The notes under the pieces are model-generated. The model was not told where the DNA came from. It made no database searches and saw nothing but the letters and a program-made list of their open reading frames with translations. 64,000 nucleotides of DNA from Methylobacterium tardum (lineage in GTDB: Bacteria > Pseudomonadota > Alphaproteobacteria > Rhizobiales > Beijerinckiaceae). The translations under genes and the position numbers were made by a program. Each line of letters starts with the position of its first letter. The stretch's first letter is position 1. Below, in pieces: positions 47,030-62,591 of this stretch. The stretch lies in contig NZ_CP097484.1 of assembly GCF_023546765.1 (NCBI RefSeq), positions 1,367,501 through 1,431,500 of the forward strand. Direction: 5' to 3'.

Positions 47030-47506
47030 TTGCCTCATCCTGTTTCTGTAGGTCGGGCTAACCAATTGGAGAACGCCCGGCCTCAACGCAGATGGCGCTC
47101 GTAGTGGAATGAGCCAATTATCGCGTCAGTTACGGGGCAAGGCCAAACGCATACATCGAAGGCAAGCCGCGCCGGCTTTTCAGCGATGTCGATTTCGCCC
47201 TGTATCATGAATGCCGAGGCGCTGGTCTTCCATGATTGAGCCCACTCTCACCTTACGAGGAAGGCTTCCCATCGTCTGCGGTATGATCCATACGATGGTG
47301 CCCTTGACCGAAAGTGGTCTTTGACGCGGTCCCATGATTTGCCTCGTTGAGCCGTTCAGCCTTGCCTTCCGGGTTTTTAGGCAAACTTGGTTCTTCTCTC
47401 CCGAGCCTCCGTAAGGCCGCCCTCCAATGGTTTATCCACAGCCGTCCCCAGGCTAAAAATTTGAGCCTTCGGTCGCCTTGCTTCGCGGGGAACTCAGCGG
47501 CCATCT
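47030..47506. other. Intergenic region upstream of umuDC
   Basis: Spacer between divergent units. The only strong signal is the SOS box at its right edge. Confidence 0.4.
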
Positions 47507-47521
47507 GTTCGCGTTCTGTTC
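47507..47521 (+). promoter_or_regulatory. LexA (SOS) box of the alphaproteobacterial type
   Basis: GTTC at 47507-47510, seven bases, GTTC at 47518-47521: an exact match to GTTC-N7-GTTC, the direct-repeat box bound by LexA in alphaproteobacteria. It ends 20 bases before the umuD start. Confidence 0.85.
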
Positions 47522-47541
47522 CAATTCGGGAAGCGAGCGCG

Positions 47542-47997
47542 ATGGCTGTCGCACGGATCGAGGAACTCAAGCCTGGCGGTTCGGGAACTGTGCGGATCCC
47601 GATCATGGGCCCGAGCCTGTGTGCGGGTTTTCCATCGCCGGCCGATGACTTTGTCGAGGACGCGCTCGACCTGCCGCGCTGGCTTGCGCCGAACCCGCCG
47701 GCGACCTTCCTATGGCGGATTTCCGGCAACAGCATGCAGGGGGCCGGGATCTACGACCGCGATCTCGCTTGCGTGGATCGCAGCCTGACGCCGAACGACG
47801 GAAGCGTTGTCGTCGCAGCGATCGACGGCGAGATGTCGATCAAGCGCTACCGCCAGACCAGCGATCGCGCGTGGCTCGCCTTCGAGAACCCGGACCTGCC
47901 GGTCTTCGCCGTCGAAGAGCTTGGTGAGGGGGTGATCTGGGGCGTGGTCCGGTTCACGATCCATTGGCACACGACGAAGGCCGCGCTGAAGCGATGA
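47542..47997 (+). CDS. umuD: UmuD-like self-cleaving protein of DNA polymerase V
   Basis: 151 residues from ATG 47542 ([20 protein letters not shown]); a longer upstream frame is discounted because it runs through the SOS box. It has the S24 protease dyad: Ser64 in [12 protein letters not shown] and Lys101 in [10 protein letters not shown], and an Ala-Gly cleavage site in [11 protein letters not shown] (residues 28-29). RecA-stimulated self-cleavage yields UmuD', the partner of UmuC in error-prone lesion bypass. The stop overlaps the umuC start as ATGA. Confidence 0.9.
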
Positions 47998-49283
47998 GCC
48001 GCGCGATCGCGCTCATCGATGGCAACAGCTTCTACTGCTCGTGCGAGCGCGTCTTCGATCCGAAGCTCGCTCAGGTCCCGATGATCGTGTTGTCGAACAA
48101 CGACGGCTGTGCCATCGCGCGGACGGCCGAGGCCAAGGCCCTCGGCATCAAGATGGGCGACCCGTACTTCAAGATCCGGGGGCTGTGCGACGCCCAAGGG
48201 GTTCGCGTGTTCTCGTCAAACTACACGCTCTACGGCGACATGTCGGCCCGGGCGAACGCTGTCTACCGCGACTTCGCGCGGGACGTGGAGGTCTACTCGA
48301 TCGACGAGAGCTTTTTGGACCTCTCAGACGTTCGCGAGCAGGACAGGTTCACGCTCGCCCAGGATCTCCGGGCGACGGTGCGCGCCTGGACGGGGATCCC
48401 GACCTGCGTCGGCCTCGGGGCTACGAGGACGCTGGCGAAGCTCGCCAACCACATAGCCAAAACGTTGCCGGCGCTGGGTGGCGTGTGCGACCTGACCAAT
48501 CCGGTCCAGTACGACCACTGGCTCTGCCGGATCCGTGTCGGCGAGCTCTGGGGCATCGGCCGGGCCTCGCTCGCCAAGCTCGAGGCGATGGGCGTCGACA
48601 GCGTCGCGGATCTCCGCGACCTCGATCCCCGGCCAGTGCGCAAGGCGCTGAGCGTGGTCGGCGAGCGCATCATCCACGAGTTGCGCGGCACGGCCTGCCT
48701 GCCGCTGGAGCTGGTCCCGGCGCGCCACAAGGGCTGCGCGGTCACCCGCTCGTTCTCGGGACGGGTCAGCGACCGCGAGACCCTCGGCGAAGCGGTGGCA
48801 GCCCACGCCTCGCGGCTCGGTGAGAAGCTCCGGCGCGACGGGCTCGGCACGGACCACGTGACGGTCTTCTACCATACGAGCGAGCACGACCGCGGCGAGC
48901 CGATGCGCTCGGTCTCAACAGTCGTGAGCCTGCCCGAGGCGACGAACGACAGCCTCGCCCTGATCAAGGCCGCCTGCCTGGGCGTGGCCAAGACATGGCG
49001 CGAACCGGGTGCGGTCCCGTGGCGGTACTCGAAGGCCGGGGTGATCACCACCGACCTCATGCCGTTGGCCGAGAGCCCACGAGCGTTGATCGGGCGGCTC
49101 GATCGGGAGTGCTCCGGACCGCTGATGGCCGCACTCGACGCGTGCAATGCCCGCTGGGGCCGCGGTTCCGTGATCCCCGCGCGCGCTGGATTGGCGACGA
49201 AGCGGGCGTGGAACACCAAGTTCGAGATGCGAACGCCGCGCTACACGACACAGGTCTCGGATCTGCCAGTTGCCCGTGCGTGA
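47994..49283 (+). CDS. umuC: UmuC-like Y-family DNA polymerase V catalytic subunit
   Basis: 429 residues, normal for UmuC. Catalytic motifs are intact: the first aspartate in [17 protein letters not shown], the steric-gate region [23 protein letters not shown], and the DE pair in [13 protein letters not shown]. The helix-hairpin-helix ([17 protein letters not shown]) and little-finger domains follow, and the C-terminal DUF4113-type tail ([26 protein letters not shown]) is complete. Induced with umuD from the SOS box, it carries out mutagenic translesion synthesis. Mobile or plasmid-borne umuDC copies are common. Confidence 0.93.
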
Positions 49284-49547: not shown

Positions 49548-49748
49548 GCTGCGGCCGCTGTGTTTCACAAGACGCCTTTGAAAATCCCGGACGGATTGAG
49601 AGCTGAAATTGAGAAGCACGGCTCGATCGGCAAGTGGATCGCCGCCGACGTCGTGCGGCTGTGCACGTACACCAGCGAGCTCAAACTTCTCGCTGAGGGA
49701 CCGAAATCGTCCCGGCGCAAGCGGAAGCGCTCAGCGCCTCACCCGTGA
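49548..49748 (+). CDS. Possible small basic protein on the opposite strand
   Basis: The plus-strand frame that ends at 49748 has a natural-looking last 60 residues (KTPLKIPDGLRAEIEKHGSI, GKWIAADVVRLCTYTSELKL) and a basic tail. An obvious start codon is lacking in the convincing part; the frame opens at 49353 through less credible sequence. It overlaps the HNH gene end by 10 bases. Could be the end of a decayed gene. Confidence 0.3.
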   Translation, partial: AAAAVFHKTPLKIPDGLRAEIEKHGSIGKWIAADVVRLCTYTSELKLLAEGPKSSRRKRKRSAPHP

Positions 49749-50539
49749 TCGTCGCTGAACCCGTGCCTTGACCGATGATCTCGCAGATAGGGAGCATGAC
49801 CGTCGCTCAGGGGCAATGTGATCGTTCGCCCTCCCGTCAACGCGTCAATTGCACGCTCTGAGAGCCTCGAGCTCACGAAGAGCTTGCCCTCGTCGCTGAA
49901 GCTGATGAGGCCCTGGTCGAAGGCTGCATCCCAGAGAGCCGAGAGCAGGAGGCCGTTGTAGACGTCGACTCGCTCATAGGCGTTGGAGTCTGCCCACGGC
50001 TTGATGTGCGAAGCCCGGAGTAGGTCCCGGTCGCGCATCCCCGTGATCGCACAGGCCTGGTTCCAGTACCTGTCCAGGTGCCGTCGAAAGATGCCCTGCG
50101 CTGTACGGACGATGGCCAGCCTTTCGACCTCGGTCGTCGCGGGCATGGTATGGGTCGCGTCCAGGAACTCCTGGTAGGCAGTCGGTGCTAGTTCCGCAGT
50201 AGCCAAATGATAGATCCGCGACAGCGCGTCGCCGAGTTCGGCGAGGCTGCTGACCATGCGGCCAATCTGCCCTGGCATGGGACCGATATAGTTCGTGCCC
50301 GGGAGGATGGCTGCATCGATCCGTGGATCGCTGAACGACACGACCCAAGGCCCGCCATCTTCGCAAGCAGCAACGTCAACCTGCAAGGGCGTCTCTGTCG
50401 AGCGCAGCAGGTACCATCCTTCACTAAAATCTAGCTTGTCCGAGCCTTTCGGAAACCCGTTTCTGTTCGCCACTTGGCGAATGTCGATCCAAACCGACAG
50501 CCGCAAGGGCAGTAGCTTTGCGGGGGCCTGGTACGACAT
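49739..50539 (-). CDS. HNH endonuclease, last gene of the DISARM-like operon
   Basis: 266 residues from ATG 50539, one base after the methyltransferase stop; a GTG at 50557 would overlap it by 17 bases. The N-terminal 150 residues are a beta-rich domain of unknown kind (LRLSVWIDIRQVANRNGF). The C-terminal part is an HNH fold of the HNH_2 type: CAITGMRDRDLLRASHIKPW (His near 178), VYNGLLLSALWDAAFDQGLI with conserved N and D. Enzymes of this type are found as restriction nucleases beside methyltransferases. In classical class 1 DISARM the nuclease-like role is given to the PLD protein DrmC, which is not present here; the HNH protein may replace it (inference). Confidence 0.85.
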   Translation of the reverse strand: MSYQAPAKLLPLRLSVWIDIRQVANRNGFPKGSDKLDFSEGWYLLRSTETPLQVDVAACEDGGPWVVSFSDPRIDAAILPGTNYIGPMPGQIGRMVSSLAELGDALSRIYHLATAELAPTAYQEFLDATHTMPATTEVERLAIVRTAQGIFRRHLDRYWNQACAITGMRDRDLLRASHIKPWADSNAYERVDVYNGLLLSALWDAAFDQGLISFSDEGKLFVSSRLSERAIDALTGGRTITLPLSDGHAPYLRDHRSRHGFSDDHG

Positions 50540-50540
50540 C

Positions 50541-53500
50541 CTACTCAGCCGCGACACGCGCGCCTATCGCGGCGGCAATGTTTCTATACGCAGCTGTGAC
50601 CAACCGGGACGTTCGATATTCATCGAGCTCCCGCAATTCGTTGGCTTTCAGGCCGCGAAAGCTTTCGGACGGATACTCCGGTCCCTTCGCATCAGTAGGA
50701 TCGAGGACGTAGCGTAGATCATCAAAAGTGAGGCCGTATGCATGTGCATACCAGGCATCGAGTTCAGCGCGCAGCAGCGCTCGCCGTTGCTCGTCCCATG
50801 TGAATGGGGGTCCTGAGTACCCTAGATCACGAGCGAACGGTGCCATGGAGTGGCTTGTGTAGACGAGTTCGAGAACGCGCGGAATGATGTAGTTCAGGCT
50901 CTCAGGCCCATAGTGATCAGGAGGAAGAACTGGAAACTGCTTCACATAGAAGAAATTCATGTGCAAGCCGCCCGCCTTCTGGCGAACAACGAAGTCGAAG
51001 ATGAGGCTGCTCATGTTGGCTAGGAGGCACGCGATCTTCCTAACGTCAGTAACGCCGGGGAACATGAGGGGAAGATTGTTCCCTACGCCGACACGCGGAA
51101 CGATCGCGGGAATGAAGGTGCGTTCGTTGGTTGCAGAAGTCAGATCTTTGAAGCCGATGTACCAAGCGTGTGGCCAATGCAGAGAGGCTAACCTCTCTTC
51201 CACGTCAGATTTGTCGACCCAGTAGAACGGCGTCAATTCGAAGTTCGGATCGGCATGTTCGTCAGCGCTCGTTTCAGGAAGTACGCGATAGCCACGTTCG
51301 TCGCCGCGCTGAGCGTAGCCTCCTGCACGATGATCGTAAAAGTTGATCATCTTTGCTTCATAGAGCGGAATATATCGCACGGGTTCGGTGATATCAGAAC
51401 CGGACGCAGCTGCATCGGGATCACTGATCCAATCTGTGCCCTCCTGGATTAGGCCCAGATCGATGAGCTGACTGGCGTCTTTGAACAGCGCACTGTCCGA
51501 GGTCATGTTATACAATCCTTGGCGAAACGTCACACGCCATGGATTGCCTGTAGCCTTATTGGCTTCTTCGATGAGAACGCGAGAGCGTGAGTAGATATAC
51601 TTCGTAAGTCTCGCATCTTCTCGTGCCCGGAAGACAGGCACGGTCTTTGTGTTCGGATTGATCTGCAGAATGTCGTCAGCTGAAAGAATGAAGTTTCTTT
51701 CGGGTTCATTCATCTGGGAGGTTGCAGTTGAGAAGAACGAGAACGTCGCACTCTCAACGCCTTCTCCGATTGTCAGAAGGCAGAACTTCATCCGCGCATC
51801 AGGCGCGGCGAAAAGCTTCATCCTGTTCTCGAAATCGGCAAGACGGATCAGTCGCTTGTTGGCGACCAGATCAGCGAAGAACAGCGAAGTCGTTGCATCA
51901 GTTGCGATGCCCGTTGGGACAACGATCCCCGCCCGACCTCGGGATGAGATCAGCTTCGCAAACAGTTCCGAGAAGAGCGCGTAGGAATTGACTTTGCCGC
52001 GCGCGGTGAGTGGAAATCGCCCCGATGAACGAGCGAACTCGTTCGCAGCTTCGAAAGCGCGCTTGTCTCGCTCGTAAGTGGCAAAAATTTCAGGGTGATG
52101 GAGCTTGAGATCCTGAATGGCCTTTTTGCGCTTAGACCCTGCCAGTAGAGCGATCTCGGGCTTGCGCTGAGCGAAATATTCTTCTTCGCCAAGTTGTATC
52201 ACGTCCCAGGGCGGATTGCCGACAACGATGTCAAACCCTCCGGCAGCGAATGCGTCAGCAAAGGTCAGCCCCCAATGAAGGACGCGCGCGGTTGCGCAAG
52301 CAAGTGAGCCTGAAGCCTCGATCTCCGGCTTGATGCTGACCTGCCGTAGTACGGCAGCAATGTCAGCGGTTGTCGGGATCAGTCTTTCATCGTGGGCGAT
52401 AGCTTGGCTATCTTTGCCAAGAAGGTAGGCCGCGACGTAGATATCGGCAGCCTGTCTCTTCGCGAGCAAACCTGGATCAGACATGGCCTGTTGCCAGAGC
52501 TCCTGGCGTGCTCTGCGTTCGCGAGGCGTGTCTTCCGGCATTTCCCTGAACGTCTCTACAAGTTTCTCGATGTAGGAGTTCTGAAGTTTCCAGGCTTTGT
52601 CATCGAAGATGTCGAGCCGGCCCTGCCCGACGCGTTCATCCCGGTTGATCAGGTAGTACTGACGGCATACGGCTTTGTCGTCCCCGGTCATAGGCTTGTA
52701 GGCCTCGTCCGGAACACCGCTGTCGAGAAGGCTGTCCAGCTTCTCCCCGAAAGCGAACGTTCCGAGAAGGGCGTCACCGCAGACCAGATTGGCATCCAGA
52801 AAGCCGAGTGGCTTGCCAGGTTCGATCGATTCGATCCACAGCGCGACCTTGGCGAGGTCGATAGCCATCGGATTGCGATCTACGCCGTGGACGCAACGTC
52901 GGACAACGTCACGCATCGCCTCTCGATATTGGTCCGCTGAAGCGACACCTCCGTTCCGGACCCGCGCAACACGTGTCGCGAGACGTCGGGCTGCTGCGAG
53001 CAGGAAATGACCTGAGCCACAGGCAGGGTCGATGATGCGCAAGCTGAGCAGAGCTCGCGTGGGATCCTGCGAGCTGGAGACCACGCGGTCCATGACGGGA
53101 TCGGCAACTGTGTCGAGGAGCGCCTGAACCAGACTGTCAGGCGTGTAGTAGCTGCCCGTTGTTTTCCTGGCGTTGCCCTTCGTCTCTGCGCCTTCTGCGA
53201 AGAGCAGCTCGCGTCCATTCGGGCTGATGCGCGGTGCGAGTTCAAGCAGACTTTCGTAGACAGAACCGAGTTCCTCGGTCTGCATATCACGCCAATTCAC
53301 CGGAAGCGTACCATCCTGCCCCCTGAGCCAGGCGAGCCGATGGATGGCTCTCATCAAATCCCGGTTGGCTAGAGCGCAGCTCTCGAGATCATCCATACGT
53401 CCCGGCTCGAACAGACCGGAGAGTGCGGGAAGGCCGAGTTCTTCCTCGCCATCCCCTAATCCGCGGAAGACAACCTGAAGGGCCTCCCAGCGATCAGCAT

Positions 53501-54557
53501 GAGCATCATACGCACTTCGGCGGATGCTGGCCTGTCGTAGGCTTCCAAGGCTGTAGCCTTGAGCATAGCGCTGGCGCTTGAGCGCCGCCGTTTGCGGCGG
53601 ATGCAAGAGGTCGCGATCCTCGGCGACGAACAGGAAGATCAGCCGGTAGACGAGGTGCAGGCACTGCTCGAAATATGCCTGGGCCGGGATCACGCCGCTG
53701 CCGACAAACTTGCGCAGCTCCCCATTGGCCGGGTGGCTCAGGAAGCCAGTTCCTAGTGCGAGAAGGGCTTCCTCGACCCCGTCGCGGAGACGATCGCGTG
53801 CGACTTCGCCCTCTTTCAGTCCGGCAAGCCGCCACCGCTCCAGCGTGCAATCCGTGACCGCGTCAGTAGGCTTGCCGAAGCGCGTCGCGTGCAGGAGCAG
53901 CCAGAGCACGGCGAAATCGACCCGGCCCTCGTTCGTGAAGATCGCGTCAAGATCGGCCTCGATGTAGGCGGGCCGGGTCAGGCTTGGGTTGTCGCGCAGC
54001 AGGCGCAGGCGCGTGCCGCAGCAGGCGAGCCCCCATAGGGCGGCATCTTCGGCGTTGAGCCAGTCCTGCACGACGCTGGCCGCGGACCCGCGCCGTCCGG
54101 CCGCCGTCAGGCTCGCGCTCACGCGGTCGATGCCGTCAGCCGGCGGGACCACGACCACCGGCACGCGTCCACCGAGGCCCTCGAAGGTCACGGGGTAGAT
54201 GTCGCCATCGCGGTCATGCCGCCCGACCGGGACGAGGTCTCGGAATTCCAGGACGTCGCGCAGCAGGGCCTCGGTGAAGCGCTGCGTAGCAGCGAGCGAC
54301 GGCTCCGGATGGGCCGTGAGATCGGCGTAGTGCGCCTGGGCAATCCGGTAGGCGCGCGCGATCTCGTCGCGCAGGATGAGCCCGCGCGCGACGCCGTAAT
54401 CGGCCGCAGTCTGCTCGTCGGCCTCGATGCGGGCGATCTGAGACAGCATCGCCGGCGCGATCAGACCACCCTCTAGGGTGATCGCGTCGAACGCGATCGC
54501 CGGGGTGCGCTTCGCGCGACGGGCCCGCCCAGCAGGTCTCGGCTGGCGCGCCATCAT
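50541..54557 (-). CDS. PglX/DrmMI-like adenine-specific DNA methyltransferase (1338 aa)
   Basis: The protein is large, as is usual for PglX and DrmMI. A 450-residue N-terminal region of unknown fold leads to the gate motif TTGSYYTPDSLVQALL (residues 467-482), motif I IIDPACGSGHF (508-518) and the catalytic NPPW (781-784) in DIVVGNPPWDVIQL, which mark an N6-adenine methyltransferase of the Eco57I/PglX class. The C-terminal third should hold the target-recognition domain (DFENRMKLFAAPDARMKFCL region and beyond). The ATG overlaps the SNF2 stop as ATGA (54554-54557). In DISARM such an enzyme marks host DNA as self; the same role is proposed here. No nuclease motif (PD-ExK) was recognised in it. 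Confidence 0.92.
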   Translation of the reverse strand: MMARQPRPAGRARRAKRTPAIAFDAITLEGGLIAPAMLSQIARIEADEQTAADYGVARGLILRDEIARAYRIAQAHYADLTAHPEPSLAATQRFTEALLRDVLEFRDLVPVGRHDRDGDIYPVTFEGLGGRVPVVVVPPADGIDRVSASLTAAGRRGSAASVVQDWLNAEDAALWGLACCGTRLRLLRDNPSLTRPAYIEADLDAIFTNEGRVDFAVLWLLLHATRFGKPTDAVTDCTLERWRLAGLKEGEVARDRLRDGVEEALLALGTGFLSHPANGELRKFVGSGVIPAQAYFEQCLHLVYRLIFLFVAEDRDLLHPPQTAALKRQRYAQGYSLGSLRQASIRRSAYDAHADRWEALQVVFRGLGDGEEELGLPALSGLFEPGRMDDLESCALANRDLMRAIHRLAWLRGQDGTLPVNWRDMQTEELGSVYESLLELAPRISPNGRELLFAEGAETKGNARKTTGSYYTPDSLVQALLDTVADPVMDRVVSSSQDPTRALLSLRIIDPACGSGHFLLAAARRLATRVARVRNGGVASADQYREAMRDVVRRCVHGVDRNPMAIDLAKVALWIESIEPGKPLGFLDANLVCGDALLGTFAFGEKLDSLLDSGVPDEAYKPMTGDDKAVCRQYYLINRDERVGQGRLDIFDDKAWKLQNSYIEKLVETFREMPEDTPRERRARQELWQQAMSDPGLLAKRQAADIYVAAYLLGKDSQAIAHDERLIPTTADIAAVLRQVSIKPEIEASGSLACATARVLHWGLTFADAFAAGGFDIVVGNPPWDVIQLGEEEYFAQRKPEIALLAGSKRKKAIQDLKLHHPEIFATYERDKRAFEAANEFARSSGRFPLTARGKVNSYALFSELFAKLISSRGRAGIVVPTGIATDATTSLFFADLVANKRLIRLADFENRMKLFAAPDARMKFCLLTIGEGVESATFSFFSTATSQMNEPERNFILSADDILQINPNTKTVPVFRAREDARLTKYIYSRSRVLIEEANKATGNPWRVTFRQGLYNMTSDSALFKDASQLIDLGLIQEGTDWISDPDAAASGSDITEPVRYIPLYEAKMINFYDHRAGGYAQRGDERGYRVLPETSADEHADPNFELTPFYWVDKSDVEERLASLHWPHAWYIGFKDLTSATNERTFIPAIVPRVGVGNNLPLMFPGVTDVRKIACLLANMSSLIFDFVVRQKAGGLHMNFFYVKQFPVLPPDHYGPESLNYIIPRVLELVYTSHSMAPFARDLGYSGPPFTWDEQRRALLRAELDAWYAHAYGLTFDDLRYVLDPTDAKGPEYPSESFRGLKANELRELDEYRTSRLVTAAYRNIAAAIGARVAAE

Positions 54558-57313
54558 AGATCTCCGGGCGTGAGGACGTAGAGGCCGACGATGTCGGCGG
54601 GCAGGATCGGCTCGACCGTGACCCGGGGCGTGCCCTGAGCAGCGGCACGGACGCGGCGGTGATCGGCCTCGAGCGCTTCGCCACGCTGGAGGGCGTAAGC
54701 GTCGATCGCTGGCATGTACGCGCTCAAGACGCGCTCGCGCGCCCGCTCGATCAGGCGGTGGCGCGCGGTTTCAGCAAGGTCGCCGCTGGCGGGTGCCTCA
54801 AGCAGCTGCTGCGCGGTCTCGCCATCCGCGATGGCGGTCGCGCTCGCTCCCACAAAGGCCAGGGTGACGGCTTCCTCAGCGAGCAGCATGCGCTCCGATC
54901 GTCCGTGTACGGTGAGCTTGTGGCGCAGGCGGACAAGCACGACCGTCGTCATGGCGTCGACGGCGCTGGTGCTCCACACACCGGTCCGGGCGAGTTCGAA
55001 GCCAGTCTCGCTCTTGGGGTCGAGCGCGGTCTCCAGCAGGCTCTCGGCTAGGGTCGCGGCGATCGGATGCGCCCGGCCGACGGTGACGGCACCGGCTGGC
55101 GCTTTGGCCTCGAAGCTGATCCGCACGTCGCCCCTGACACCGCTGGCGTCGAGGCGTTCGGTGATGGCGGGCGGTAGCTTGGCGAGATCGGCGCGGAAGG
55201 TCGCGTCGCGGCCGGGCTCCAGCGCCGTGTTGAAGTGGTTCATGGCATGGGCGATGAAGCGTTCGACCCGGTCGGGGCCGCCGATGATCGCGCGCCAGCT
55301 CTCCCACTCGGGCATGACTTCGGCAGGCTTGAGAGCGTGCTGCGCGTAGCGCGCGCGTGAGCGCTTCTCGCCCTCCTCGGCGTCGCGCCAGCACGCCGAC
55401 AGGGCGCTCGCTTCCTTGGCGAACAAGTCGAGCTGCCTCTGCGCTCGGGGGCGTCCGCGGTGCTCCAACATCGCGTTCAAGAGCGCGCCGGAGATCACCT
55501 GACGATCCTCCGGCAGCGCGATGATGACGCCGAGATCCTTCCGAATCCGCTCCGCCTTCCTCAGGATCACGCTGAGGACCGCGCTGTCGATGAGGCTGTC
55601 CGACCCGAACAGTAGCATGGACTTTACCAGGGACGCCGGCTGGCCGAAGCGATCAACGCGCCCCTCGCGCTGCTGATGCCGGGTCGGGTTCCACGACAAG
55701 TCGTAGTGCACGACGGCGTCGAACAGCATCTGCAGGTTGATGCCTTCGGACAGGCAGTCCGTCGCCACCAGTAGCCGCTGTGGCTCCTCGGCCATCCCTT
55801 CGACCCGGTCGCGGCGATCGTCCGGGACGAGCAGACCCGTGACGCTCTCGACGGCGAGGCCCGGGAAGGCCTTGCGGAGCGCGGTGGCGACATACTCGGC
55901 CGTGGCGATGTACCGGCAAAACACGACCGGGTTCGCGCCGGCGGTGATCAGGGGCTTCAGCTCCTCGATCATCATCGCGAGCTTCGGGTCCGGCTTTTTG
56001 ACCAGCGCCTCGGCCTGCTGGATCAGCTTGGCGAGCGCCGGGTCGGTCCCAAGATAGGCGCTCGGCTCTGCGTCGACGGCCTCGGTATCCTCGTCCTCCT
56101 CGTCGAGAACCTGCATCGACAAGCGTTCGGGATCGCCGTCCTGGCGGTTGCGGAGCGCATTGAGGGCCGCGGCCGGCGATGAGCCCACACAGCGGAGCAG
56201 CGCCAACGTCGACCAGAGCGTGAGCCGCTGCCGGTGCGTGCCGTCACCCGCGTCCTCGATGCGATCGAGGCAGTAGTCGAGGACGGCGTCGTGGAACGCC
56301 GTGTGATCGGGCCCGAGCGAGTAGGGGCGGTTGAGCTTCTCGTGTTTCGGGAAGATCTGATCGTCTTCCCACTTCTGCTCGAGGATGTCCTTTCGGCGAC
56401 GCTGCACGAAGTGGCGCGCGAGCGCGATACGGCCGGCATTGGTCTCGAGGCCGGACATCGCGAAGCTCTCATCAAGCAGCTTCAGCAACCGATCGAAGGC
56501 CTCCTCGTCGCCGCTGTGTGGGGTCGCGGTGAGAAGCATTATGTGCCGCGCCGCGTCTCGGGCGAGACGCTGCAGCAGGCGATAGCGCCGCTGGCGGCTA
56601 CCGTGCGTGCCGACGCAGGCATGGGCCTCGTCGACGACGACGCAGGGCGGACACGAGGCCGCGAAGCTCTCACGGCGCTTCTCAGCCTTGATGTAGTCCA
56701 GGCTGACGACCGTGAACGGATGGACCTCGAACAGGCTCTGCGTCCCGACGACTTTCCGTTCCAGGCGCGGCGCGGACGCGGAGGTGACGGCGACGGCCTC
56801 GATGTCGAACTTGGCGCGCAGCTCGCCGACCCATTGATCGACGAGGTGCGGCGGGCACAGGACGCAGAAGCGCTCGATCTCGCCGCGGTCGAGGAGTTCG
56901 CGAAGGATGAGGCCGGCCTCGACGGTCTTGCCGATGCCGACGTCGTCGGCGATCAGCAGGCGAACCACGGGCAGGCGCATCGCCATCAGCAGCGGTACGA
57001 GCTGATAGGCTCGCGGCTCGAAGCTGACGCGCGCCGACGAGCGGAACGGGCCCGCGCCCCGCCGCAGCGACAGGCGGAGCGCCTCCGCCAGAAGGCGGGC
57101 GCTCTCCTGCGTGCCGCGCACGTCGACCTCGGGCGGAGCGAAGTGCGCGGCCTCGACCGGCATCCGCTCCAGAGCCGGCAGTATCGTCAGCGCGTCGGCC
57201 TCAGTGCCGGAGAGCGGGCGCAGGCGAAGCGCGGCCGGGTCGTTGTGGGGCAGCGTGACCCATTCCCGGCCGCGCGCACGCACGAGGTCGCCGGGGGAGA
57301 ACTGGACGGTCAT
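54554..57313 (-). CDS. SNF2-family helicase, DrmD-like (919 aa)
   Basis: ATG 57313 ([20 protein letters not shown]) is preferred over a GTG at 57400, since a one-base correction of the upstream gene ends it exactly on this codon. The SNF2/RapA-like core has Walker [19 protein letters not shown] (residues 123-140), DEAH near 228, LLTATPHSG, and in lobe two [12 protein letters not shown] and [19 protein letters not shown]. The C-terminal 250 residues are alpha-helical with a conserved-looking [20 protein letters not shown]. DrmD of class 1 DISARM is such an SNF2 ATPase; RapA-like helicases in Dpd systems are alternatives. It is the second gene of the operon. Confidence 0.93.
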
Positions 57314-60300
57314 GCCGCGACCTTGAACAGCGACGAGAGGGCAGGGGCGGGTCCTGCTCGGGGGCTCCTGTGAGCACCACGAGCGTCCAGCCGCCGTCAT
57401 CGAGTTCGTCGACGATGTCCTGCGGCGGCGGCGCGTAGGCGATCGCGACGTGGTGGCTGCGCCAAACGTCCAAGATGCCGTTGGCGTCGAACTTCAACCG
57501 CTTGGCGTCGAACGGCGGCAGCCCCCACCGGCCGAGAGCCTGCGGCCACGTCTCCGTGCTCGCTGCGGCCGAGGGTGCCGTGCACACGACGGAGGTCGAC
57601 CGGATCACGCCGGCCGCGAGCCGGACGAGGGTCGTGCGAGCGCCCTCGTCCGTGCGGTCGATCAGAGCGTGGTCCATTTGGTTGTAGTACGACAGCAGAC
57701 AGCGATAGCAGCCGCGCACGCAGAAGGCGTCGCCGAGATCCTGCAGCTTTGAGGCGTCGCGGGTGATCAGCGCGTCCTCGATGCTCTCGGGCGTGAAGTG
57801 CATGACTTCCAGGGCGCGACGGGCGACTTCGGCCAAGCGCTCCGGTTCGCTGACGAGGCGGCGAAGCACGCCGGCACCGCCCTCGCTGGACTCGTAAGCG
57901 AGGATCGCCTTGCGCCTCCGGCGATCCGGGACGGCCTCGGTGGCGATCTCGCCTTCCTCGACCTGAAAGACGAGGCTCAGGCCCCGAGCGATCGCGTATT
58001 GGAGCGTGGCGAGCGTGGTCTCCTCTGCCTCCGGACCGAAGAGCTTCAGCAGGGCCGCATTCTTGTGGTCCTGCACGATGGGTACGACGCGCACGGCTCC
58101 GGGGCGTTCGGGCTCTGCCGGGTCAGCATCGTCATCGTCCTGCTCGCGGTCGGCTCCGACCCATTGGCCGTTCTGCGGGTCGATCGGGTAGCCAAACCCT
58201 GTTTCCGGCTTCCGCTTGCGAAGGCCCAGGTTGAGCCGGCTGATCTGAGCGCGTGGCGCGTAGGTTAGATCCAGGACGGTGCCGTCGTCATCCTCAGCGA
58301 CCGCGGTCAGGATGTCGCTCTGGCCGTTTCGTTTCGCCCAGGTGAAGGTGGTCTGGATCTCGAACCCACGACCCCGGCGGGCCTCCTCGTTCGCGGTGAT
58401 GCGCTCGGACGGGACCGTCTCGACGTTCTCGATGCGCAGAACCTTCTGGATGAGCTTCGAACCTTCGCCGCCAATCTGCGCGCCGCAGGCGTGACACAGA
58501 TTCTGTCCGGCACCCTCGTGGCCCGCGCCGCATGTGCGGCACACGCGCCAGACCGCGAGGTTGCCCTCGGCCAGCATTCCTTGCGGGTCGCGAACGTCCG
58601 GCGGGATCTTGGCACGGACGACCTTGAAGGCGCGCCCCTCGTGGTAGATCAGCGAGCCCGGTCCAAATTCGGCGATCGCCAGGAAGCGGGCACGCTGCAG
58701 GTAGGCCGCCCGCGGCCCGGTGGAGCCCTGCTCGGGCACGTAGGCGTAGAGCGGCAGCCGTGGGAAGTTGTAGCCGGGCAGATAGCCTTCGGTCGCGAGG
58801 TATCGGTGCGAGGCGAAGTCGGAATTGTCCGATTTGCCGCCGTGCTCCAGCAGCCGGATCTGGCTGTTAGCGATGCGCAAGGCGCGCTCGGCGGCGTCGC
58901 GGGCCTGCTTCGTCAGGCCGTGCTTCATGATCTGCCGGCTGGCCTCCTCCATCTGCACGAAGGCGGCGTTGTACAGGTCGCGCCAGCGCCCGAACGCATC
59001 GTTGAAGCGCTGCGCTGCCGTCTTCGCGACATCAGCCACGAATGGCTTGGAGTTCTTCAGCCAATCGCTGCCCGGGTCGTTCAGGACGGCTGGCGGAATG
59101 GAGGTGCGGATGTTGCCCAGGATCCGCTCGAAATCGTCCTCCACGCCGACCACGCGGTCCGGATTTGCGAGCCGGTCGGTGATCTCGGCGCGCACCGTGC
59201 GCTTGGGCGTATCGAGGTCGAGGATGTCCGGGATGGCGTCCGGCAGTTCCTGCCGCAGCCGCCCGTCGATGCCGGCCTTCGCCAGCCAGATGGCGTTGAG
59301 ATGCGCCTCGATCAGGTCGCGGTTGGCGAGATCGATGCCGGGCGGTCGCACGGAGCCGGCGACGAGCTGCTCCCGCCGGGCGAAGTAGTACTGATCGTGC
59401 GGGCTCTGGGCCGCGCAGTAGGTGACGATGAGCGCAGCTTGGCCGGAGCGTCCTGCGCGGCCGGACCGCTGCGCGTAGTTCGCCGGCGTCGGCGGCGCAT
59501 TGCGCAGGTAGACGGCGTTCAGCACCGAGATGTCGACGCCGAGCTCCATCGTCGGCGAGCAGAACAGCACCGGCAGGAAGGTGTCAGCCTCCAGCGGATT
59601 GGTCTGGTCCGCGCGCATCACGTCGAGGTTGCGTTTGCCGGCATCGCCCCAGCGGAAGCGCGCCTCGCGCCAGAGCCGCAGATCCTTGTCGACCTGCGCC
59701 GTGTGCTCACGGCTCTCGAACCCGAGCAGGCTATCGTCGTCGCTGGTGAGGATGTCCGCGGTCTCGCGATACAGGCGCGTGAAGTAGGTGTTTACGTCCA
59801 CCTTCGGCGCATCAGCGACGAGCCGAATGGCGGAGGGCAACAGCCGCAGGCCGGTGATCCCGTACTCCGAGACCTCTCGGATCCAGTTCTGAGCCTTGGC
59901 GATCCGGACGACGCTCTCCAGGAGTTCGTTGTACTCGTGGACCGTGAGGCGTCGATTGCCCGAGAGATGGCCGTGCCGCAGCTTCTTGCCGACGCGGCTG
60001 TTGGGACCGGCGGTGATCAGGCGGCTGTCCGGGCCGCGACCGCTCGGCTGAGCCTTGCCGCCGGCCCCCTCCGGGACGATCAGCAGCCCGGCATTGGAGA
60101 CCGCCTCCTGCTCCGAGATCGCCCAGGGCGTGCGCAGGTTGTCGCGTGAGGATCGGCCCAGGCTCTCGGTCGTCGCCTTCTTCAGGAAGTCGCTCTCGAC
60201 CGCGAGTTCCCCGCGCATGACCTCGAACAGAGCGTGAAAGATCCGTCGACGCGCATCCGGCTTGAGGCCGCGCAGCAGAGGGGCATCCTTGAAGAGACTG

Positions 60301-62591
60301 TCATCGGCACAGCTCTCGAGGCCCGGGTAGTGCGCCCGGATGAGCTGGAGGTTCTCCAGGTTCAGGTTGGTGTACCGCCAGCCGCGGCGCTGGTCGCTCC
60401 ACACGCGGTGGCTGAGAACGCGCGTGAGATCGGTGACAGCCCGCGCACGGGACGGGCCAACGGCCTCGGGCGAGCGCATCCAGTGGCGGCGGCGATCGTC
60501 GTTGTTGTCCTCGAAGCCGAGCGCCTTCTGCACGGCCGTGCCGTACTCGGCCTCGGCGAGCCCGTCAGGCCCGGCGGCCTGCACGGCCGAGAGGACGGCA
60601 GCCCGCAACAGCGTCGTGAAGATGAAGTCGTTGAAGTGGCCGGCCTGAAGCGCCGCGTCCTGACGGTTGTCGGAGAACCCCAGCACCTTGCGCTTGTCGT
60701 CGGCGATCTTCGCCTCGGGACGATGCATGAACCGCAGAAGGCTGCTGACGATGAGTGTCGTCGCCGAAGAACGCCCCTCGGCAGTCAAACCGGCGAGCTT
60801 GTTCTGCTCGCGGGTTCCGGGCTGCGCCTCCAGCTTGCAGTTCAGGCAGAAACGCCACCGGCCGGGGATGAACCAAGCCTGGCGGCCGGCGGCACCGACG
60901 CGCCCGTTCGGCAGGACGAAGGCTGCCGTGACCTGCTGCTTTCGGCGCGTGGACTTCAGGCGCGAGCCACGCGGCGTGTGCTCGACCCACTCGTCGGGGT
61001 ACTCGTCCAGTGCGCCCTGGAAGAACTCGTTGATCGTCTCAGGCTCGGGCACGAGGTAGCCGGCGGTGCCGCCGTCCGTCTCCCGCTCATTGATCGGATC
61101 GTCGATCGAGCGGGCCACGAAATGGTCGCCGTCCTCGTCGCCGAGGCGCATGACCGGGTGGTACTCGTGCCCGCAATCCCGACAGAAATGGGTCGAGAAC
61201 AGCAGCGCGGTCTTGTCATCTGGATGGTGCGTCTGACCCTTCAGCGTGACGCGCCGGATGCCGGTCGGACCGGCCGTACGCAAGGTCGTGTAGACTAAGC
61301 CCGCGCCTGAGATGAACCGGTGCAGCTTGAACGCCAGAAACGCGCGGGACCCGGTGCCGCCCCGCTCTGCGCCGGGACGGGCAAGGAGGCTGAGCATCTC
61401 GCGCAGACGCCCTTCGCATAGTTCCGCGTCGCACCCGGTCTCATGAGCGAGAGCCCTCGCCGCATCCACCAGGGTCATCGGCTGCCGCCGCTTCAGGCGG
61501 CTGGTGTACTCCAGCCCGATCCGAAGCTCGATCCAGACGGCGAGCGGGTGGATTTTCAGCTCGGCGTCTGTGACCTTCGTTGGCACCGGGCTCTGGATGC
61601 ATGCGGCCAGCTGCCCCTGCACGCTGGGGACTGTCAGATCCTCGTCGGTCGCCCGCTGAAGGGTCTCTTCGATGACGCAGTCGTCCGTGACCGCCACACC
61701 GAATAGGTCGCTGGCGACTTTGGCCACCGCTTTGACCGGATCGCCCTGGTCCGGCGTCGCCATGGTCGCGGACGTGCCGATGCAGACGGGATCGGCCACG
61801 CCGCGGCACAGCTGGTCGCGCAGTCGGCGCACCAGAACGGCGACATCGGCACCCTGACGCCCGCGATAGGTGTGCAACTCGTCCAGCACGATCCAGCGCA
61901 GGCCGCGGGCGTTGCCGATCACCTGGGCGTCGAGCTCGCTCTGCCGCGTAAGCAGCAGTTCGAGCATCATGAAGTTGGTGAGCAGGATGTCCGGCGGGTT
62001 GTCTCGGACCTCCTCGCGCTTCTCGCGGCTCTCCTGGCCCGTGTAGATGCGCACCCGTGGGCGCTCGGCCTCTGGAATACCGCACTGGTTCAGGAACTCG
62101 GTCAGGCCCTCGTACTGCGAGTTCGCCAACGCGTTCATCGGATAGACGACGATGGCGCGGGTCCGCGGTCGGAAGTCGGGCTTCTGGCGCTCCCGGATCG
62201 CCTCGTCGATGATCGGCAGGAAGTAGCAGAGCGACTTGCCCGATCCGGTGCCGGTCGTGACGACGAAGCTTTTGTTGGCCTTGGCCTTCGTCAGCGCCTC
62301 GACCTGATGAAGGTGCGGCTCGAGGACCCGGCTGCGCTCACGAAAGACGTGCGTCGTGAGCGGGTGCAGGACATCGTCCTTGACGAGTTCCTGGAGCGTC
62401 TCCCCGCGTGCGAAGTGCGGGTTGATCGTGATCAGGGGATCCGGCCAGAACGCCTTGTTGTCGTAGAGGCGGTCGACCTCGGTCCGGATGTCGTCAGCAG
62501 CGATCTTGTTGAAGGATCGCGCGAAGGCGTCGTAGTCCCGGATTAGGGTCTGGTCGAGGCCGAACGCGTCCACGAGGTCATGTCCCCCCAC
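57310..62591 (-). CDS. DEAD-box helicase with C-terminal DUF1998 (DrmA-DrmB-like fusion), C-terminal frameshift
   Basis: About 1760 residues. Lobe one: Q-like region PHLHQVEAL, Walker A VVTTGTGSGKSLCYF (113-120), TNFMMLELLL, DELH (237-240), GTSATMA. Lobe two: FCSPTMELGVDISVLNAVYL and NYAQRSGRAGRSGQ. Then a cysteine set CRTCG/CHACGA near 1440 and the DUF1998 block with CVRGCYRCLLSYYNQMDH near 1700. This unites what DISARM splits into DrmA and DrmB; MrfA/YprA and Druantia DruE have a similar plan. The frame as given runs on to 57201, but one extra C near 57345 would give LSSLFKVAA and a stop overlapping the SNF2 ATG as ATGA. The start is GTG 62591, just after a palindrome. First gene of the operon. 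Confidence 0.92.

Follow-up and report, generated by a model that had tools for sequence, protein, structure and literature searches.

Which defense system is encoded by four tightly packed genes in a 64,000-nucleotide stretch of Methylobacterium tardum DNA (NZ_CP097484.1, positions 1,367,501 to 1,431,500; hereafter the window, in whose coordinates features are given), and which of their products would cut DNA? The genes specify a YprA/MrfA-family helicase, an SNF2-like helicase, an adenine methyltransferase and an HNH endonuclease, and a first-pass annotation had read them as a compact DISARM variant in which DrmA and DrmB are fused and the HNH protein stands in for the DrmC nuclease. Its domain calls, its reading of the locus as a defense system and the kinship to DISARM all held up, and the core families and their order are those of ARMADA type I. 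Judged by gene families and order, on which the assignment rests, the locus belongs to the recently named ARMADA type I class; DISARM and Druantia are its relatives, but it is not a DISARM system. It is probably an anti-phage locus of this type in a compact four-gene form, with a predicted mode of action akin to restriction-modification, in which the methyltransferase would mark self DNA, the helicases would detect unmarked DNA and move along it, and the HNH protein would cut.

The operon and its assignment to ARMADA type I

All four open reading frames (ORFs) lie co-directionally on the minus strand, at the coordinates stated in the first-pass annotation, and their Pfam domains bear out its domain calls. 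The leading gene encodes the YprA/MrfA-family helicase (ARMADA ArmC-like; 57201..62591; PF00270, PF00271, PF09369), which combines a DEAD/DEAH core and an MZB/DUF1998 domain within one chain and carries five CxxC pairs (residues 470, 582, 1351, 1366 and 1628); PF09369 is the MrfA zinc-binding domain, called DUF1998 by the earlier annotation and by PMC12458937. It is followed by a RapA/BrxHII/SNF2-like helicase (ARMADA ArmA-like; 54554..57400; PF00176/PF00271) with GIGKT and DEAH motifs, Walker-type motifs being present in both helicases, and by a PglX-like, Eco57I-type adenine methyltransferase (ARMADA ArmB-like; 50541..54557; PF07669/PF02384) with DPACGSG and NPPW motifs. The operon is closed by an HNH_2 endonuclease with a VcaM4I-like catalytic domain (49739..50557; PF13391). 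Base composition falls to 56% GC at 50-52 kb, over the C-terminal part of the methyltransferase and the HNH gene.

The SNF2 and methyltransferase genes overlap by 4 bases, and a 1-base gap separates the methyltransferase from the HNH gene if the internal ATG at 50539 is taken as the start of the latter, as opposed to a 17-base overlap with the listed GTG. At the helicase/SNF2 boundary of the window as read there is no ATGA: the real SNF2 start is likely at 57313 rather than at the listed 57400, and the helicase ORF extends 113 bases beyond it because the reading frame of its final codons differs from that of the closest relatives. Relatives such as L003, L045 and L076 have a 4-base overlap at this junction.

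In the main text of the study that describes ARMADA, type I systems comprise three core genes, which as a rule run from a YprA homolog through a BrxHII-like helicase to a PglX-like methyltransferase (Bell et al., bioRxiv 2025, PMC12458937). A BrxA-like insert after RecA1 and a MarR-like domain are further traits of the type. There, a helicase and DUF1998 in one chain are normal for ARMADA, DrmD/DrmMI-type genes are shared with DISARM, and the ARMADA helicases are placed nearest those of Druantia (PMC12458937). The window has the three core families in the same order, the second being BrxHII/RapA-like, the helicase core and DUF1998 in a single chain, and the additional CxxC zinc-type pairs. It differs from the published description in two respects, namely the HNH gene that closes the operon and the helicase C-terminus, which typically, though not as a strict requirement, bears a predicted active Vsr nuclease (PMC12458937) and which is degenerate and not predicted to be active here.

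The locus was also compared with the PADLOC and NCBIfam models of related systems. The best PADLOC matches of the window helicase are DruE models, at 287 bits, as against 46 bits for the best DrmA model. The locus differs from Druantia in having methyltransferase and SNF2 partners, and no other Dru protein stood among the matches listed for the four proteins (the best 25 of 37 in the case of the SNF2 protein, the best 25 of 50 in that of the methyltransferase). The SNF2 protein is covered over nearly its full length by the PADLOC DpdE model PDLC02853 (E 1e-192), and PADLOC would label its gene (54554-57400) a Dpd gene; however, it scores 192 against NCBIfam DpdE, below the cut-off of 500, and no deazaguanine synthesis gene was found among the scanned neighbors. 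The best match of the HNH protein is a PADLOC model named HNH. Such a mixture of best families (DruE, DpdE, DrmD, DrmMI and HNH) fits a system that is absent from the 2023 PADLOC library, whose models assign parts of the locus to Dpd, DISARM and Druantia.

A derivative of DISARM class 1, with fused DrmA-DrmB and an HNH protein in place of DrmC, can be credited with the matches of the DrmD and DrmMI models to the SNF2 protein and the methyltransferase, respectively, and with a helicase of the YprA family, but ARMADA shares these genes with DISARM. The helicase is unsplit, far nearer DruE than DrmA, and set in another gene order, and the SNF2 protein reaches 303 bits against NCBIfam DrmD, short of the cut-off of 610. 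No DrmB appeared among the matches listed for the proteins scanned, DUF1998 residing within the helicase, and no DrmC phospholipase D-type nuclease was found among the neighbors scanned, which made up part of the ORFs (4 on the HNH side; 10 and one fragment beyond the helicase). With the core published as ARMADA type I and its helicases placed nearest Druantia in that text (PMC12458937), the DISARM derivation is already largely refuted, and we regard it as highly improbable.

The arrangement recurs widely. Across 84,980 species genomes, at least 585 stretches encode a relative, and the best 80 were examined as loci L003-L082. The helicase is encoded in all 80, the SNF2 and methyltransferase genes come next wherever the contig is long enough, and gene order is then identical throughout, so that the arrangement is not due to chance; some genes are split into more than one ORF, e.g. 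in L013, L026, L030, L066, L070 and L073. Of 240 genomes drawn evenly from the class of the window, five match the helicase at E <= 1e-100; among these, the window's own genome and G313 are complete, G234 has a 614-residue fragment, and G308 and G206 show neither SNF2 nor methyltransferase gene within the 20 kb examined. Three of 41 near relatives (the own genome, G018 and G038) have a full-length helicase match and the whole core. The helicase relative P0131 finds 41 plasmid records at E <= 1e-100 and no phage record at E 1e-50. Of four plasmid records inspected, those of Methylorubrum extorquens AM1, Paracoccus marcusii and Rhizobium leguminosarum carry the HNH gene, while the Hydrogenimonas stretch stops inside the methyltransferase. 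The AM1 megaplasmid (L141:6015-18821) holds a full-length, tightly packed four-gene copy whose helicase is free of the out-of-frame end; this stretch has no entry in the PLSDB gene table. AM1 and the same-genus genome G018 share the compact form of the window, with HNH abutting the methyltransferase, and the annotated order in P. marcusii is helicase, helicase, N-6 methylase, three hypothetical proteins and HNH endonuclease.

Co-occurrence of the HNH gene with the core

An HNH gene of one family lies downstream of the methyltransferase in 59 of the 66 loci in which its presence could be decided, always on the same strand (59/59) and with starts that range from 3 bases inside the end of the methyltransferase gene to 10.7 kb past it. 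The stretches as first taken showed it in 35 of the 80 loci, and 24 more came from genome searches and downstream contig sequence, the wider genome searches having covered 15 loci with neither nuclease and 20 of the 21 Vsr-positive loci; 14 loci are undecidable, 13 because the contig ends and L059 in addition. In genomes chosen without regard to HNH, all four helicase-SNF2-methyltransferase loci (own, G313, G018 and G038) carry the gene. As background, a search that scored first-look candidates only found an HNH match at E <= 1e-40 in 4 of the 240 class genomes, two of them being the complete systems of the own genome and G313 (3 of 239 without the own genome). Helicase and HNH distance matrices are correlated across the window and 57 loci (58 rows; r = 0.84, with none of 2000 permutations as high). 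The three-gene core, then, corresponds to a named system, an outcome that the first-pass annotation had named as telling against its proposal, and the rare co-occurrence that it had named likewise was not what we found, HNH being widely associated with the core.

This association is new relative to the main text of PMC12458937, which names no HNH component and contains the word once, in a reference title; its supplement lay outside the scope of this comparison, as did those of the other articles. Among the passages retrieved from literature from 2023 on with DISARM, ARMADA and HNH, no paper described the association, the HNH passages of a Druantia III preprint concerning ZorE. Passages on DUF1998 together with HNH, on ARMADA and Druantia, and on YprA and DISARM likewise yielded no such association, and it is absent from the DUF1998/HNH passages of a Ralstonia defense survey and a Methanoperedens plasmid paper.

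The HNH active site is preserved. Residues H184, N201, D210 and D214 align with H224, N241, D250 and D254 of VcaM4I, and they are kept in every alignment row that covers them. An alpha/beta domain of about 120 residues precedes the catalytic domain; a fold search with it gave no confident fold, and no EVE/PUA row was among the matches listed.

Does the HNH protein replace a lost nuclease? The helicase C-terminus of the window holds a degenerate Vsr/DUF559 remnant (about residues 1680-1760) that lacks the nuclease motif and gives no Vsr match, and the motif is missing in 57 of 78 readable relatives, 21 loci being motif-bearing. At first view the two nucleases appeared mutually exclusive, with the Vsr motif in none of 35 HNH-positive loci and HNH in none of the 21 motif-bearing ones. 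After the wider search, HNH proved to be present in 46 of 49 decidable loci without the Vsr motif and also in 13 of 17 with it (Fisher p 0.066, a generous value as the loci are related), which refutes a simple swap in which HNH occurs only where Vsr is dead. A tree-based pair test also gave the swap no support, its labels dating from before the downstream search, with an outdated 'neither' group and outdated HNH counts. What survives of the swap idea is that all ten loci with HNH no more than 300 bases from the methyltransferase are Vsr-negative.

The cutting step and competing readings

If the locus operates as an ARMADA type I system, the methyltransferase would mark host (self) DNA at a target motif that its variable C-terminal part would determine, both helicases would detect unmarked incoming or replicating DNA and travel along it, and HNH would make the cut. 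The last role is proposed for HNH because the Vsr domain of the helicase is degenerate here and HNH is the only nuclease domain that Pfam recognizes in the four proteins. The nuclease role given to HNH in the first-pass annotation is plausible in view of the conserved active site; the substitution for DrmC is not, the nuclease expected in ARMADA being the helicase-fused Vsr. According to the relevant passage of a 2026 PLoS Pathogens article, ARMADA, BREX, DISARM, MADS and Druantia restrict by unknown mechanisms (PMC12904381), and a conserved HNH protein with its active-site residues intact provides a concrete and testable candidate for the enzyme that cuts. The full-length copy in M. extorquens AM1, a tractable laboratory model strain, makes a test of its role practical.

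The proposed specificity of marking draws on 131 non-independent locus pairs that passed a word-sharing prefilter and have helicase identities of at least 70%. On average, identity amounts to 77% for the helicase, 81% for the SNF2 protein, 76% for the N-terminal and 53% for the C-terminal part of the methyltransferase, and 64% for HNH, the last from a pair table with one wrong value (100% for the window versus G018, truly 69%). In the most telling pair, L010 and L018, the helicases are 99%, the methyltransferase N-terminal parts 97%, the C-terminal parts 56% and the HNH proteins 92% identical. This pattern fits a swapped target-recognition region in the C-terminal part of the methyltransferase. 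Swapped target recognition occurs in other restriction-modification enzymes.

In the ARMADA type II system, as described in section 6 of PMC12458937, deletion of any of four genes abolished protection, which counts in favor of the proposed reading. Several points weigh on the other side. Those protection tests concern type II (PMC12458937), and there a mutation in the S-adenosylmethionine site of the methyltransferase cost protection only in part (PMC12458937), so methylation marking may not be the whole story. HNH lies within 300 bases of the methyltransferase in only 10 of 59 loci, other sequence intervening in the remaining 49, and it is missing from seven (L019, L064, L069, L073, L074, L078 and L081) that have about 8 kb or more of downstream room as derived from contig ranges; the system may therefore work without it. 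Shared species history may account for part of the helicase-HNH correlation. A pairing of specificities between HNH and methyltransferase was also considered and rejected, as HNH identity does not track the methyltransferase C-terminal part (rho -0.02) and gives no sign of matched pairs.

Because HNH is absent from seven loci and set behind other sequence in 49 of 59, and because its catalytic domain resembles that of VcaM4I, the main rival reading is that it is a separate type IV modification-dependent nuclease, housed in the same defense island but outside ARMADA I, that would attack modified-base phage DNA beyond the reach of the methyltransferase-based arm. The catalytic domain is indeed common to a stand-alone modification-dependent enzyme, the EVE-HNH endonuclease VcaM4I, with which the window protein shares the HNH domain and the active-site residues H, N, D and D. 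The N-terminal domain is not recognizably EVE in a fold search that gave no confident fold. The distances of the HNH protein, however, follow those of the helicase, and its gene keeps to one strand and, in the window, AM1 and G018, sits right next to the methyltransferase gene. On balance we consider a type IV passenger unlikely, if still the strongest of the alternatives.

A further alternative is a decaying locus that has lost its function, as the absence of a Vsr match and the helicase end might suggest: compared with its nearest relatives P0121-P0123 and with G018, the helicase departs from the common reading frame over its final dozen or so codons, which may be a sequencing error or a genuine mutation and, in the latter case, a defect that counts against a working system. 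Yet the frame change touches only those last residues, the missing Vsr motif is common to most readable relatives, and catalytic motifs are present in all four proteins, making decay improbable.

Returning to the ARMADA I reading, we tentatively propose a stronger form of it, which may well prove wrong in part: HNH would be a conserved further component at the end of the operon, the interval that separates it from the methyltransferase would serve as a slot for defense cargo, and, with Vsr dead in much of the family including the branch of the window, HNH would be the only recognizable cutter.

The methyltransferase-HNH interval and flanking genes

The most frequent occupant of the proposed cargo slot is an LmuB-like/DUF2326 protein. 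Its gene, mostly of about 650 residues, comes immediately after that of the methyltransferase in 35 of the 80 loci (e.g. L003:22396-24339), in Vsr-positive and Vsr-negative loci alike, some contigs ending too early to reveal it; no such gene lies between methyltransferase and HNH in the window. The interval in L005, L011, L018, L029, L031, L045 and L079 encodes HD-domain, weak UDG, AAA/HEC-03B, Schlafen-AlbA, GmrSD-HNH and SMEK proteins.

An AbiEii-like protein and a resolvase are encoded at L136:5589-9104, about 5 to 9 kb past the right end of the window, and hint at a mobile or defense-rich region. The plus strand at 47347-49283, to the HNH side of the operon, carries genes for polymerase V proteins of the UmuD-like and UmuC-like kinds.
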